Below are positions 6,888 through 42,180 of a stretch of 48,742 nucleotides of DNA, one piece after another. How positions within the stretch are numbered: position 1 is the first letter of the stretch; each line of letters begins with the position of its first letter. The notes under the pieces are model-generated. The model saw only the letters and a program-made list of their open reading frames with translations, did no database searches and was not told the origin of the DNA. The DNA comes from Clostridia bacterium (lineage in GTDB: Bacteria > Bacillota > Clostridia > Lachnospirales > Lachnospiraceae): the NCBI GenBank assembly GCA_003252135.1, contig QKDK01000241.1, positions 1 to 48,742 on the forward strand. The letters are read 5' to 3'. The translations under genes were made by a program, and so were the position numbers.

Positions 6888-7310
6888 CTATTCGGTAACA
6901 GTAATTCTTCTATAATCAAGGCCCTTGGTCAGATCCTTTTCAATCAGTATCCTTTTGCTCCTCTTTGGTATGATATCTTCGATCAGTTCTGCCCACTCTA
7001 TCAGACAGACACCGCCTTTATCGAAATACTCATCTCCTCCGATACCTAGCAGCTCATCGCTTCCACTCATCCGATAAACATCAAAATGATAAAGTGCCAG
7101 CCTGCCTTCTTCATATATCTGCAGTATCGTAAAGGTCGGACTGCTTACCGGTTCTTCAATGCCAAGTCCAAATGCAAATCCTTTTGTAAGAACAGTTTTC
7201 CCGGTACCCAAGTCTCCTGACAGGCAAAAAACATCACCAGGCACAGCTGTCTCCCCTAATTTTTTCCCAAACGCAAAGGTGTCCTGTGCGCTGTAACTTT
7301 CCTGTATCAA
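6888..7310 (-). CDS. tsaE: tRNA threonylcarbamoyladenosine biosynthesis ATPase TsaE
   Basis: GDLGTGKTVLTKGFAFGLGI Walker A, SSPTFTILQIYEE motif; TTG start. Confidence 0.93.
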   Translation of the reverse strand: MIQESYSAQDTFAFGKKLGETAVPGDVFCLSGDLGTGKTVLTKGFAFGLGIEEPVSSPTFTILQIYEEGRLALYHFDVYRMSGSDELLGIGGDEYFDKGGVCLIEWAELIEDIIPKRSKRILIEKDLTKGLDYRRITVTE

Positions 7311-36698: not shown

Positions 36699-38657
36699 CT
36701 ATTTCTGTGAATCATTCACCGGGTATACTATTTCCATATCCTTTTGGTACTTTCGTTCCATCTGATGGTGCTTTTTCCTGACTTCCACCGAATCAAAAAC
36801 AATCGAGAAATCATAACCGTCAGGGTACATCTCCGATGCCGGAACCAAAAGCTTTACCCTTTTATGATTTACAGTCAGCTTCCTTTTCTGTATCTGAACG
36901 ACTAGTTCCCCCAAGTCATTGACAGGTTCATAAACTATTCCTGTCTTTTTTTGCGGATACACCATCACTGAGTCGCCCATGGTAAATTTTTTCCGTATTT
37001 TTTCGCTTTGAATCGGACGAATGACCTCTGTTCTTTGTATCCTTGGCAGCGTATTTTTACAGGTTGTCTCTTGGTTGTAAAGGTATGTCCCATTACCGGT
37101 TAATGCATGATTACCCGCAGCCTCCCCACGATCATCCACATTCCTGTAAGCCGCCTGATAAGCACGGCTTAACATATGTGCAGGAAATCCGAGCTTCATA
37201 GCGATGTAAAATGCACAGCTTTCTCCTGCCTCACCGATTTCCAGCCGGTACAGCGGCAAAAGACTTTCTTTGTCAAATGCCATTCTTGCATTAATAACAC
37301 CTTCGGTATTCTCCGCATATACTTTGATTTCAGGATAATGCGTTGTGACCATGAACAGGCATCCGCTCTTTTTCAGTTCGTCAAGAATCGATACCGCAAT
37401 TCCCATTCCTTCTGCCGGATCCGTACCGGATCCCAGTTCATCCAGCAGGACTAATGTCTCCTGATTCATGCGCTTGATAATGTCGATAATATTTGTAATA
37501 TGCGACGAAAATGTAGACAGGTTCTCCGATATGCTCTGACCATCTCCGATATCGCACAGAATGGCAGCTCTCATACAGACATCTGCCGATTCACAGGCAA
37601 CATGAAGTCCGCAATTTGCCATCATCAGGCATAATCCGACTGTTTTCAATGCTACCGTTTTACCGCCTGTATTCGGTCCGGTTATGATGACACCGTGAAT
37701 GGTATCGCCGAACTCTATGGAAAGAGGGACGCAGGTGTTCCTGTTTATGAGCGGATGTCTGCCTTCTCTGATCTTCACACTGCCGTTCAGATTGATCAGC
37801 GGTTCCACGCCGCAAATGTCAATGCTTAGCTTTCCTTTCGCAAAAATATAATCCAGTTCCTCCAGATAATCAATATTTCTTTTGATTATCTCGGCTTCGT
37901 CACTGACCAGACATGACAAAAAGTACAGTATTTTCCTGACTTCATTGTTTTCTTCTATCCGTATCTGTTCAAGTTCTTCCCGAAGTCTGGCAACCGCTGC
38001 CGGCTCTATAAAACAGGTAGCCCCGGTCGAGGATATGTCAACAACGCTTCCCTGTATCGCATGCTTATATTCCTTTCGTACCGGCAGAGTAAATCGCCCG
38101 TTTCTGCCCGACACAAAGCTTTCCGAAAAATACGCCTTATTCTTGCGAAGAATCTCTTCAAGTTTATTTTTTATGGCTGTTTCAAGGACAGCTCTTTGTC
38201 TTCTGAGCGAACAAAGCGTCTTTGTTGCATAATCATCCACACCGTCATTGCGAATACAGCGCTCTATCTCTGACCGTAACTGCGGCAGTTCACTTATTCC
38301 TTTTCCAAAATCAGCGAGAAGCAGTCCGCTGTCAGCAGATTTATTCAGATATCGTATCATCCGTTCGCACACTACAGTGAACAGTCTGATCTCTTCTAAT
38401 TCATTTACAGAAAGCATCTCTCCTCTTTGCGCCGCATCGACGAGCTTCATTACTTTAGATACATCACCAAGCGGCGGAGCACCTGTGGTATCGAGCATTT
38501 TTCTTGCTTCTGTTGTTTCTCGGAGCTTTCTGCGCAGCTTACCTTCATCCAGTATCATGTCCATCTCTGAAAATCTTTTTTTCGCTTTTTCAGTTACTGC
38601 ATGACTGATAAGTATTTCTTTTATTTTTGTAAACTCAAGTGTTTCTTGATGATTCAT
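36699..38657 (-). CDS. MutS2-like ATPase without a C-terminal Smr domain
   Basis: GPNTGGKTVALKTVGLCLMMANCG Walker A; LVLLDELGSGTDPAEG Walker B; ends at about 650 aa without a recognisable Smr domain. Confidence 0.85.
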   Translation of the reverse strand: MNHQETLEFTKIKEILISHAVTEKAKKRFSEMDMILDEGKLRRKLRETTEARKMLDTTGAPPLGDVSKVMKLVDAAQRGEMLSVNELEEIRLFTVVCERMIRYLNKSADSGLLLADFGKGISELPQLRSEIERCIRNDGVDDYATKTLCSLRRQRAVLETAIKNKLEEILRKNKAYFSESFVSGRNGRFTLPVRKEYKHAIQGSVVDISSTGATCFIEPAAVARLREELEQIRIEENNEVRKILYFLSCLVSDEAEIIKRNIDYLEELDYIFAKGKLSIDICGVEPLINLNGSVKIREGRHPLINRNTCVPLSIEFGDTIHGVIITGPNTGGKTVALKTVGLCLMMANCGLHVACESADVCMRAAILCDIGDGQSISENLSTFSSHITNIIDIIKRMNQETLVLLDELGSGTDPAEGMGIAVSILDELKKSGCLFMVTTHYPEIKVYAENTEGVINARMAFDKESLLPLYRLEIGEAGESCAFYIAMKLGFPAHMLSRAYQAAYRNVDDRGEAAGNHALTGNGTYLYNQETTCKNTLPRIQRTEVIRPIQSEKIRKKFTMGDSVMVYPQKKTGIVYEPVNDLGELVVQIQKRKLTVNHKRVKLLVPASEMYPDGYDFSIVFDSVEVRKKHHQMERKYQKDMEIVYPVNDSQK

Positions 38658-38849
38658 TTTTTTCTCCATTCCTGCGATGTTTCTATGCGTATTATGAAAG
38701 AATTATCTAGTTCTTTCTTTTCATTGTTTCAATTAAAACTGTCGTCTGATCTTATCTATAAAGCACTGATACTTAAATTTAACAAATCCAGGACAGCCAG
38801 TATACTGAATAATTCGATAGATACGCTTTTTCATCCAAATCAGAATAAA

Positions 38850-39110
38850 CAAAAAAAGCATGACCAACTTGTCATGCTTCCAAAATACACCAGTAATTAG
38901 AATAATTACAGGAATACCCCGATGCAGGATAAAGTAAGTGTCAGGTAGAATTAATCAGCAAATAAAGCTGACCAAAGGCCAGAGATAATACTCTCTGCCT
39001 TAAACAACATATGGATTAGTTGTTATTCTCTACACTGAAAACACGTAACATACTCTACCTTTTCTTTCTTGAACCAGGGGTTGAACTCTGTAATTATTTA
39101 TTTTTTACGT
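38850..39110 (-). ncRNA. Structured noncoding RNA of unassigned class (raiA-like or 6S-like candidate)
   Basis: Minus strand: TTGACA-N17-GATAAT promoter; closing stem AATAATTACAG/CTGTAATTATT plus ACCCC/GGGGT; inner stem AGGTAGA/TCTACCT; internal hairpins AACAAC/GTTGTT, AAGGCAGAGA/TCTCTGGCCTT, TCAGC/GCTGA; terminator AAGCATGAC/GTCATGCTT plus T7; no credible ORF. Confidence 0.75.
38851..38879 (-). terminator. Intrinsic terminator of the ncRNA
   Basis: Minus AAGCATGAC-AAGTTG-GTCATGCTTTTTTT. Confidence 0.9.
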
Positions 39111-39115
39111 GTCTT

Positions 39116-39144
39116 ATTATCTCATATCATTCTTTTTCTGTCAA
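39116..39144 (-). promoter_or_regulatory. Consensus sigma-A promoter of the ncRNA
   Basis: Minus TTGACA (39144-39139), 17-nt spacer, GATAAT (39121-39116). Confidence 0.85.
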
Positions 39145-39198
39145 CCCTGCCTTTCTGTCAACCCTGCCTTTCTGTCAATCCTGATGCTTTCTGACAAA
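39139..39198. repeat. 17-bp tandem repeat, each unit carrying a TTGACA -35 hexamer
   Basis: Minus GGATTGACAGAAAGGCA|GGGTTGACAGAAAGGCA|GGGTTGACAGAAAAA; TTGACA at 39144, 39161, 39178; degenerate fourth unit TTGTCAGAAAGC upstream. Confidence 0.85.
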
Positions 39199-39246
39199 TA
39201 CAAAATTCCATGTATCGCAACTTTATTGCAACCATGGAATTCTGTA
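39199..39246. terminator. Large hairpin, probable terminator of the 39351-40058 gene
   Basis: ATACA-A-AATTCCATG...CATGGAATT-C-TGTAT. Confidence 0.6.
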
Positions 39247-39350
39247 TTCTAAATTTTTATATTTAGATAGGGCACGCAAGGTTATATTACTTTCTAGACC
39301 ACCAAATATACGCTACTGCGTAGTTTAACTATACCTGATATCGTGTAGTC

Positions 39351-40058
39351 TTACCATGACGTTTTTGGAGAATCGCAAAATTTCTCTTCTCCGTTTTCAT
39401 CAAAACAGAACACAAGAACACCATTTAATGCTTCAACAAAATCCTGTGCCGTATTGCGTCCGGTCGTAAAAAGATAGGTAAAAAGCTCATAGCTTCCAAG
39501 AACAATAAAATATAGAGCTGTGTACAGCAAAAGCAGCAGCGTTATGTCCTGAAATATGAACATCGTTGCATCAGTCAGTTCGATCAAATGACTGAGCAGA
39601 CTGAATGAAACCGGCACCAGCAGAAATAACAGCCATTGGCGGCTTACATTGATAGGGAAATTGAAGCGCTTTCTTTTTTTACCTGCGATTTCCTTGTAGC
39701 AGCTGCTCAGCTGGTAAACCTGATTTTTAGTACGTATATCATTTGCTTCCAGCCATAGCTTGACTTCTTTACAGAATATTCTGTATCTGTCATAATCCAC
39801 GCCGCTTTTTTGTGATCTGTCAAGCTTAAAGAAATAATTCATCAAAATCATGAATCCTCCTTCAAACAGCAAAGGCAGATACAGCAGATCGCTTTGACAA
39901 TGGTTTATACATAACAAGAGAAATACTGCAAAAGCAGCAAAAGAAGCAAGCAAAAAAATCCATGTCACTATAGATACGGTTCTAATGCGCTCCGTCAGTT
40001 TCAGTTTTTCGTTTTTCCATCGATAATACTTAAATAATAATAATTTTTCCAAATTCAT
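39351..40058 (-). CDS. Hypothetical polytopic membrane protein (about 235-240 aa, about 4 TM)
   Basis: Hydrophobic segments VTWIFLLASFAAFAVFLLLCI, LPLLFEGGFMILMNYFF, WLLFLLVPVSFSLLSHLI, ITLLLLLYTALYFIVLGSY; start uncertain (40073 or 40058). Confidence 0.7.
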   Translation of the reverse strand: MNLEKLLLFKYYRWKNEKLKLTERIRTVSIVTWIFLLASFAAFAVFLLLCINHCQSDLLYLPLLFEGGFMILMNYFFKLDRSQKSGVDYDRYRIFCKEVKLWLEANDIRTKNQVYQLSSCYKEIAGKKRKRFNFPINVSRQWLLFLLVPVSFSLLSHLIELTDATMFIFQDITLLLLLYTALYFIVLGSYELFTYLFTTGRNTAQDFVEALNGVLVFCFDENGEEKFCDSPKTSW

Positions 40059-40084
40059 CCCTCCTGTTGTCATTCTATGTCATT

Positions 40085-40149
40085 ATGGTAAAAAATCCCA
40101 TGACGTTTTCGGAGAAGTTTTTAAGTTCTCCGAAAACGTCATGGGATTT
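40085..40149 (-). terminator. 24-bp perfect inverted repeat; terminator-like on the minus strand and possible operator
   Basis: AAATCCCATGACGTTTTCGGAGAA-GTTTTTAAG-TTCTCCGAAAACGTCATGGGATTT (40093-40149); minus strand continues into a T6 tract. Confidence 0.8.
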
Positions 40150-40170
40150 CATTAATTATCGCACTATAAT
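40142..40170 (+). promoter_or_regulatory. Candidate promoter of the small peptide gene, -35 inside the palindrome
   Basis: TGGGAT-N17-TATAAT; poor -35 overlaps the right palindrome arm. Confidence 0.55.
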
Positions 40171-40199
40171 TTGGTAAATACAGAATGGAGGATGCAATT

Positions 40200-40355
40200 A
40201 TGAAAAAAACTATAAAATTAATGTTATTACTGGTTGCTGCAGTCTGTCTTTCCATGACCCTGCGCGGCACTGCCGTACAGCCTTCTTTGTCTGCCCAGCC
40301 GTCTGGCATGACACTGGTCGCCGATCCTTTTGATGATGACGATTTTAATTTTTAA
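40200..40355 (+). CDS. Small secreted pre-peptide, candidate RRNPP-type signalling peptide (51 aa)
   Basis: MKKTIKLMLLLVAAVCLSMTLRGTAVQPSLSAQPSGMTLVADPFDDDDFNF; SD GGAGGA 7 nt before ATG; N-terminal Sec-like signal; below the ORF-track size cutoff. Confidence 0.75.
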   Translation: MKKTIKLMLLLVAAVCLSMTLRGTAVQPSLSAQPSGMTLVADPFDDDDFNF

Positions 40356-42180
40356 CACCGTTCATGACTGCCGGATAATTGTCAGCAAGATGATTCTTAA
40401 TGATATTAGCTGACACCAGATCCCGCATAAGGCAGCTGATATCATACGCTCTTAAAAAATATCTGCAGCAGACACTACTTCTTTCAGCCGCAGACATTTC
40501 TGCCATTTTCTTTTCGAGTATAAAACCTTTCTTCGCAATATATTTACCAAGGAACTGTCCTCTGCCGCAGCGCAGAGTAAACGCCACTGCCTGGTCACAT
40601 ATTTCGACAGCTTCATCAAGATAATCGTTCTCTTCTAAATACTTTTCAAGGTTGGACATGATCATCAGAACAGATACAGAGTGATACTTCATATCGATCT
40701 GGCTGTTCTGATAGCTTTTTAAAACCTCCTTCAGCAGACTGATTGCTTTTTCACTCTGTTTCATCTGGTTATACAGTATTGCGATCCGGACTATAATGTT
40801 CGCTTCCTGCTTCGACAGGCTCAGATGCTCGATCTGACAGCCTGTCTGTCTCTTTATGGTCAGATCAAGAATTTCATTCAGCTTATTGACGGTCTTTTCT
40901 GCACTTGCCTTCTTTTCTTTATAATCCAGCCAAGTCTGTGTCATGAGGACATACTGTACGTTCATTTTATCATCCATATCAATGAGCTGTTTCAGTTCTT
41001 CAAATCTGTCCTTTATCTCATCATAGTGGTGGTATGCTGCAAGCCGCTCTATTTCACGTTTCTTTTCATATACTGTAAAATCATTGGTCAGAATATCAAC
41101 ATTATAAATATCCTTATCAATGCCAAGAGCTTTTTGTATCTTCTTAAAATTATTTATGTGCGGCTTTCTTTTCCCGCTTTCAATACGGGATATGGTTTCG
41201 GGTGCCAGATTATCCCCGCCAAGTACCTCCTGTGACATTCTGCTGTTCTTTCTGCTGCTTCTGATGACTTCATTCATTAAGAAGACTTCTGTCTGGGAAT
41301 TGCATTTATGTATGGCATCACTTTCTCTTTCCGGAGCAGCTCCATATTCACCGTAGACCCAGAGAAGGCTCTCGAGCTGCTTTTCTGCCGATTTAGTATC
41401 TTCATTATTACTGTCTTTTTGACACAGAAGGTATATACGCAGCAGACCTGTGATTCCAAATATAACAGCGTTCTTAGCAAGCAGACCAATGGCTTTTCTG
41501 CAAATGTCAGCAGCTTCTATGTAACTGCCCTGCTCTGACTTTAGCTCTGCCAGAAATAGAGCAGCTTTTGGGAAAATCTTGACCTTTTCTTCCTCGTCAG
41601 TGTAATGAGTCTCAATATAGTCAAGAAGTTCCTGCAGGCTCAGGCTGTATTCATCCATTCTTCCCTGACCTTTCAGACAGGTCAGCAGAATCAATATCAA
41701 AATCACCTCTTCACGGCTCAGATAGTAATCCTTCAGAGCTTTCAGCTCAAACCCCGGAACCGTGCGGCCAATTGAAGATAATATCATCTTCTCGCAGATG
41801 ACAGGATCCCCGGTTCGATGATAAAGTAAAAATGCCTGTATTTTTTCACAGTATTGCCTGTGCAGGTTTAAACCCGCCTCTTTTGCCTGCAGATAGTGAT
41901 TCAGACCTTCTTCGACCGCAGCCCAGTCATCCTCTTCCATACCCTTCTCGATCTTTTCCCTGATACAGAGCAGGACATAATCACGCTCCGACAGAACCGT
42001 AAAGAATTTATCAGGAGATTTTCCCAGACGCTGAATAATAGCATCCATTAAAAATTTGTCGGGTACTCTTTCTTCCAGTTCAATTCTCGATAAGGTCGCA
42101 TCGGAGCATAAACCGCAGCATAATTTTTTTTGTGGTATTTCCTGCTGTGTCCTAAGGGTAAAAATCAAGTTTCCTATCAT
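40345..42180 (-). CDS. Double HTH-TPR transcriptional regulator (RRNPP/PlcR-like)
   Basis: Two XRE-like HTH regions (IGNLIFTLRTQQEIPQKKLCCGLCSDATLSRIELEERVPDKF and NEVIRSSRKNSRMSQEVLGGDNLAPETISRIESGKRKPHINNFKKIQKALGI), each followed by TPR-like helices. Confidence 0.8.
   Translation of the reverse strand: MIGNLIFTLRTQQEIPQKKLCCGLCSDATLSRIELEERVPDKFLMDAIIQRLGKSPDKFFTVLSERDYVLLCIREKIEKGMEEDDWAAVEEGLNHYLQAKEAGLNLHRQYCEKIQAFLLYHRTGDPVICEKMILSSIGRTVPGFELKALKDYYLSREEVILILILLTCLKGQGRMDEYSLSLQELLDYIETHYTDEEEKVKIFPKAALFLAELKSEQGSYIEAADICRKAIGLLAKNAVIFGITGLLRIYLLCQKDSNNEDTKSAEKQLESLLWVYGEYGAAPERESDAIHKCNSQTEVFLMNEVIRSSRKNSRMSQEVLGGDNLAPETISRIESGKRKPHINNFKKIQKALGIDKDIYNVDILTNDFTVYEKKREIERLAAYHHYDEIKDRFEELKQLIDMDDKMNVQYVLMTQTWLDYKEKKASAEKTVNKLNEILDLTIKRQTGCQIEHLSLSKQEANIIVRIAILYNQMKQSEKAISLLKEVLKSYQNSQIDMKYHSVSVLMIMSNLEKYLEENDYLDEAVEICDQAVAFTLRCGRGQFLGKYIAKKGFILEKKMAEMSAAERSSVCCRYFLRAYDISCLMRDLVSANIIKNHLADNYPAVMNGVKN

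Follow-up and report, generated by a model that had tools for sequence, protein, structure and literature searches.

A putative autoinducing peptide-signalling module with a double HTH-TPR regulator and a bidirectional operator in a Lachnospiraceae genome

A candidate signalling module and its layout

A 51-aa peptide gene, a 611-aa regulator gene and a divergent membrane-protein gene most probably constitute an autoinducing peptide-signalling module, in which a double receptor would activate a two-way promoter and, further away, a third promoter. This reading is drawn from sequence features: the gene layout, the conservation of the small ORF, the homology to PlcR, a palindrome, the promoter geometry, the covariation of the boxes with the HTHs and the rarity of the box. 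That the three genes form a cell-cell signalling module had been proposed in the initial annotation; it is now supported by the co-occurrence of the short ORF with the regulator and by the PlcR-like nature of the latter.

The window (i.e. the whole 48,742-nt stretch of DNA analysed) is contig C25 of a 3.57-Mb draft assembly which is 80% complete. The three genes were found where they had been placed: the 51-aa ORF at 40200-40355 on the + strand, the regulator at 40345-42180 on the - strand, and the divergent membrane gene; the short ORF overlaps the 3' end of the regulator gene by 11 bp, as previously described. The three-gene inventory stands, with two missing elements to be added to it, a palindromic operator and a third promoter. 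The module is chromosomal and sits between metabolic genes; plasmid carriage was considered and set aside, a plasmid search giving no match. A MutS2-like gene (36699-38669, - strand) adjoins it, and another one (G027:C56:189293-190810) is found about 5 kb from a related module in another genus; because such a gene is near both modules, the chromosomal site may be ancestral despite the changed target gene.

The nearest regulator ortholog (65-68% identical) belongs to locus L008, on QKJQ01000042.1 (G001:C3). The gene order there is the same as in the window: a gene which, from its sequence, appears O-acetylhomoserine-lyase-like, the regulator, a convergent short ORF (6920-7069) and a divergent membrane gene.

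The regulator is a PlcR-like protein made of two units

The regulator comprises two fused HTH-TPR units (about residues 1-290 and about 300-611), as judged from Pfam, from the homology of its halves and from an AF2 model. Residues 1-233 match residues 301-534 (blastp, E=5e-4), and it is because the halves are homologous that we consider the protein a fusion. HTH_3 exceeds the Pfam cut-off. The first HTH (residues 8-51; 42028-42159, - strand) was delimited with the helices of the model (H2-12, H17-20, H27-34 and H42-51) and the alignment of the halves, and the second (residues 306-356; 41113-41265, - strand) is the best HTH_3 stretch; the RNPP_C/TPR domain of unit 2 (residues 375-560; 40501-41058, - strand) matches PF18768 at 37.2 bits, against a cut-off of 26.5. 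The model (pLDDT 91.7) displays two HTHs with TPR-like helices after each, and its top fold match in the PDB is PlcR:PapR7:DNA (E=4e-7), ComR being also among the hits. With a profile built from 21 relatives, PlcR is retrieved at E=9e-19, unit 2 being aligned to PlcR residues 10-283. Sequence and fold both put the regulator beside PlcR, in keeping with its initial description as an HTH/TPR regulator of the RRNPP type.

By homology, the regulator belongs with the RRNPP receptors. As in RRNPP(A) systems, the HTH precedes a TPR domain that shares homology with those of known members (RNPP_C, PlcR profile and fold), and a small propeptide gene, putatively Sec-exported according to a simple rule, is adjacent to it. 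A few departures were revealed. A survey of receptors was restricted to proteins of 250-500 aa (PMC10075063) and the RRNPP receptor architectures have at most one N-terminal HTH (PMC12700828), against 611 aa and two HTH-TPR units here. RNPP proteins are reported to possess a strictly conserved TPR Asn which contacts the peptide backbone (RapF N227; PlcR N159 column) (PMC3601957); the window regulator has V464 in the N159 column, and the position is N in 8 of the 21 relatives, including the two nearest, L008 and L009. Another candidate for this residue, N407, is invariant (21/21) yet falls outside the column, and was rejected. Finally, members of the PlcR subfamily are single-unit activators of about 285 aa, against a double unit of 611 aa here. 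Because of these differences in length, in HTH number and at the Asn position, the regulator is filed as a variant that would work like PlcR-PapR and not as a PlcR member.

The short ORF is conserved and such ORFs accompany most double regulators

The propeptide gene is preceded by a strong SD, GGAGG, about 8 nt upstream of the ATG at 40200, and both this SD and the translation agree with the initial annotation. The N-terminus of the peptide is signal-peptide-like, positively charged and hydrophobic, export being judged with a simple sequence rule (charged then hydrophobic N-terminus); the C-terminal end is ...MTLVADPFDDDDFNF. The candidate signal segment, VADPFDDDDFNF (40317-40352, + strand), agrees with L008 at 9 of its 12 residues, and synonymous changes are seen among its codons. 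The ORF is not a random one, since L008 retains it at the same place and on the same strand. Identity between the two peptides is 10/17 residues C-terminally and 11/34 N-terminally, with VADxFDxDDxNF as the common C-terminal pattern and with synonymous codon differences in that part, and the score of their post-signal alignment was reached by none of 2000 shuffles. As the overlap with the regulator gene is of 11 bp only (4 bp in L008), this C-terminal conservation is not imposed by the latter. The resemblance to PapR that had been put forward fares less well: the ADPFDDDDFNF end is acidic/aromatic, a character shared with the one ortholog, but the C-termini of other systems are quite different, and the PapR-like character is only suggestive. 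The PapR7 signal is ADLPFEF (PMC6568020).

Relatives of the regulator are present in 40 of 397 genomes and 34 of 334 genera of the host's taxonomic family; in a class-wide draw, they were found outside the family in three genomes only, as proteins of single-unit size. An accompanying ORF was defined by an SD, a charged then hydrophobic N-terminus, a length of 28-110 aa and a stop codon within -50 to +20 bp of the regulator stop. Of the double regulators with enough flanking sequence (47), 32 have such a convergent ORF, whereas the control positions of the same loci gave 3 (downstream, same strand), 3 (upstream, divergent) and 1 (upstream, same strand; Fisher p=3e-10). The predicted co-occurrence of the double regulator with an ORF having an export-type N-terminus and a variable C-terminus was thus observed. 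The commonest arrangement is a sharing of 4 bp (14 cases). The heuristic finds no ORF for 15 of the 47 regulators and for 8 of 14 loci fetched later.

Two variations on this scheme are worth describing. At L018, L080, L083, L084 and L050, a pair of single-unit HTH-TPR genes, adjacent or overlapping, takes the place of the fused regulator, and at several of these loci the peptide ORF and the palindrome come after the second gene; these loci offer a natural comparison for asking why the receptor became fused. Some genomes (G175, G780, G777 and G044) have four or more different double regulators, on several contigs each, suggesting that a cell with at least four of them could possess several private signalling channels.

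An inverted pair of boxes at fixed distance from two promoters

A near-perfect 57-bp palindrome (40093-40149), the putative operator, separates the divergent genes (inverted-repeat score of 21.9 versus at most 7.9 in shuffles). It is made of two inverted copies of an 18-bp box, CATGACGTTTTNGGAGAA: box 1 (40099-40116, - strand) putatively serves the membrane-gene promoter and box 2 (40126-40143, + strand) the peptide promoter. A third box lies at the 3' end of the membrane gene (39355-39372, - strand). All three copies are found at the same places in L008, where the third is just after the stop codon. At L009, from a different genus and with a regulator only 39% identical, the inverted pair is kept and the divergent gene codes for an EAL protein. 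The three module sites are the only ones in the assembly at up to 2 mismatches, although further sites may have escaped the search, the assembly being just 80% complete.

In other systems the sequence of the palindrome differs, CATGAC being often present. A strong palindrome (score of 13 or more) was found downstream of 36 of 61 double regulators, against 3/55 upstream and 0/61 in shuffled sequences. Over 13-15 systems, and with TPR divergence removed, the sequence distance between boxes follows that between HTH2 recognition helices (partial r=0.69, p<0.001, near-duplicates excluded); for the HTH1 helix, the partial r was 0.35 (p=0.024). This indirect evidence points to a direct recognition of the boxes by the regulator, mainly by HTH2.

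The -10 hexamers stand at a constant distance from the boxes. TATAAT (40165-40170, + strand) is 21 nt after box 2 on the peptide side, TAGAAT (40072-40077, - strand) is 21 nt after box 1 on the membrane-gene side, and the TATAGT of the third promoter (39328-39333, - strand) follows box 3 by 21 nt, with TATTAT at the same spacing in L008; all three boxes of the window and all three of L008 keep it. When distances were counted from the CATG of the box, 13 of 17 systems had a -10 hexamer at exactly 21 nt on the peptide side, and 10 of 18 had one there on the divergent side; no other offset was shared by more than 3 and 4 systems, respectively (binomial 2e-16 and 9e-11 relative to the mean over all other offsets). 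These counts are not fully blind, because the anchor and the score were picked after viewing the window and a few relatives. Two loci fetched afterwards, L149 and L154, have a -10 at 21 nt when read by eye, and L149 carries the same box as the window. The -35 match is at best 3/6 in all six promoters of the window and L008. Such weak elements are as in activator-dependent promoters, and could also suit a repressed promoter. From the spacing, a box-bound protein would end at about -34, where an activator replaces the -35 contact.

The operator could also be that of a repressor, the regulator of an otherwise identical module occupying both promoters until displaced by the peptide, in the manner of PrgX or Rgg3. 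A protein bound to boxes that end at the -35 position could exclude polymerase, and peptide does inhibit some RNPP members (PMC3601957). We nevertheless hold repression to be unlikely: the -35 elements are poor, the -10 is held at exactly 21 nt on either side and from the lone third box too, as is typical of polymerase-recruiting activators, and the closest relatives in sequence and fold, PlcR and ComR, are activators.

A model based on activation

In the activation model, which we prefer, the 51-aa propeptide would leave the cell by the Sec route and be trimmed to a C-terminal peptide lying within the candidate segment. Oligopeptide permeases would re-import the product (the genome has nine matches to PF00496, the peptide-binding protein), which would then bind the TPR part of the single-chain double receptor, probably in its second unit. 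The HTHs of the receptor would read the asymmetric 18-bp box, and the inverted pair would place the activator over the -35 of both divergent promoters, turning on the peptide gene, hence a positive feedback, as well as the membrane-protein gene; the third box would turn on a structured RNA of about 470 nt. Export, processing, import, peptide binding, activation as opposed to repression, transcription of the RNA and the function of the output are all steps that we infer. We lean, if only slightly, towards a more specific proposal, in which these receptors would be a class of their own in quorum sensing: two PlcR-like units would have been fused into a built-in asymmetric dimer reading a non-palindromic 18-bp box, the inverted boxes would form an autoinducible bidirectional promoter with changing targets (membrane protein, c-di-GMP phosphodiesterase, RiPP-type enzymes, exporters), and one of the targets here would be a quorum-controlled structured RNA.

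The genes across the palindrome vary

The polytopic membrane protein (39351-40052, - strand) has 233 aa if started at TTG 40052, or 240 aa from ATG 40073. The TTG, used in L008 (L008:7219-7899, 64% identical), is probably the right start, because ATG 40073 falls inside the gene's own -10 hexamer. The protein matches no known family in Pfam, NCBIfam or PHROGs, and among 150 sampled genomes of the host's family it was found in its own genome only, besides the G001 ortholog; its AF2 model, made from 2 sequences (pLDDT 60.5), was too poor for a fold search.

Across systems, the receptor-peptide-operator core is constant and the divergent target varies: the genes facing the palindrome elsewhere code for EAL proteins, radical-SAM/SPASM proteins, ThiF-type proteins, parts of ABC transporters, MFS proteins or small secreted proteins. 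The presence of radical-SAM, ThiF and ABC genes in front of the same operator in some relatives, together with the hydrophobic N-terminus of the peptide, would also suit a small ORF encoding a secreted effector, a RiPP precursor or a small hydrophobic toxin that is merely co-regulated. There is little to recommend this second alternative, given that the small ORF persists while the divergent target varies, that its tail-to-tail position beside the regulator is fixed, that the C-termini are soluble, often acidic, and vary between systems like ligands, and that receptors of this class bind peptides.

The double-receptor systems at L069 and L121, L011 and L109, and L090 have radical-SAM/SPASM, ThiF-type or similar genes opposite their operator, which hints at peptide natural-product clusters that are still unexplored and would be controlled by quorum sensing. 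Genes of the EAL-domain (c-di-GMP phosphodiesterase) type are found across the palindrome at L009/L106 (602-1462) and L083/L124, and may connect peptide signalling with c-di-GMP.

The third promoter and a candidate RNA

The third promoter precedes a putative structured non-coding RNA of about 470 nt (38855-39325, - strand), which would end at a terminator-like hairpin followed by a T run (38850-38882, - strand). This region is 72% conserved in G001 and was not found in the two other genomes of the genus. A coding gene under this promoter was considered and discarded, as no conserved ORF with an SD is present. The predicted fold is of -140 kcal/mol, versus -104 kcal/mol in shuffles (z=-5.6), and paired changes preserve some of the hairpins, a weak indication coming from two sequences only. 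No Rfam family is matched. The element is a candidate for a quorum-controlled RNA. Within it, three tandem 17-bp repeats (TTTCTGTCAACCCTGCC) are present at 39135-39185, where the ortholog apparently has about one copy.

It is highly improbable that the palindrome itself acts as a terminator or represents some unrelated repeat: single-stranded, it would make a strong hairpin, but it sits between divergent genes with nothing to terminate, a lone non-palindromic copy exists at the third promoter, the 21-nt distance to the -10 is kept on both sides, and its sequence tracks the HTH. In a permissive Rfam search, this hairpin gave only chance miRNA-like hits.

Comparison with known systems

PlcR-PapR, from the Bacillus cereus group, is similar in having an HTH-TPR receptor whose entire length is homologous to unit 2 of the regulator, and a small exported propeptide encoded beside it, with the signal at the C-terminus. 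It differs in several respects: PlcR has one HTH-TPR unit where two are fused here, and the conserved Asn missing from the window regulator; the propeptide gene is here convergent and overlaps the receptor stop; and asymmetric 18-bp boxes are here arranged as an inverted pair. Clostridial receptors of the RRNPP type, Qsr (with Qsp) of Clostridium acetobutylicum and QssR of C. saccharoperbutylacetonicum, are likewise associated with small exported peptides, mostly unannotated, but have one HTH each, and no bidirectional palindromic operator is described for them in the accessible parts of the two reports (PMC7376267, PMC7206700). QssR has been assigned to the nine-TPR clan B (PMC12700828).

The streptococcal Rgg/SHP and ComR/ComS systems share the HTH-TPR receptor fold (ComR is among the fold hits) and the control of peptide natural products, which is suggested here by the radical-SAM and ThiF neighbours of relatives. 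They differ by the export routes of SHP- and ComS-type peptides (PMC12700828) and by the single receptor unit of Rgg and ComR. The arbitrium system, AimR-AimP-AimX, likewise combines a peptide and its receptor with a regulated small RNA output, the RNA of the window being a predicted one. AimX acts as an RNA. Unlike the chromosomal window locus, arbitrium is phage-borne, and AimR has nine degenerate TPRs and a single HTH.

In a search of mainly open-access literature, no paper joined RRNPP with Lachnospiraceae and no double-HTH, double-unit RRNPP receptor was described; this widespread family of double receptors is apparently undescribed. Such proteins would have been excluded from the large PMC10075063 survey by its length filter, and many private peptide-signalling modules, invisible to a survey of that kind, seem to exist in the host's family of anaerobes. 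With a strict receptor-peptide-operator layout, signals, operators and target genes, biosynthetic and c-di-GMP genes among them in relatives, can be read from sequence alone, and the reason for the receptor doubling becomes directly testable.

Two short human-gut contigs deposited as bacteriophage, L129 (MT837868.1) and MT837634.1, encode relatives of the double regulator, one of them matching it over its full length; for that one, no ORF or palindrome was detected under the rules used. Both contigs may be bacterial or prophage DNA.
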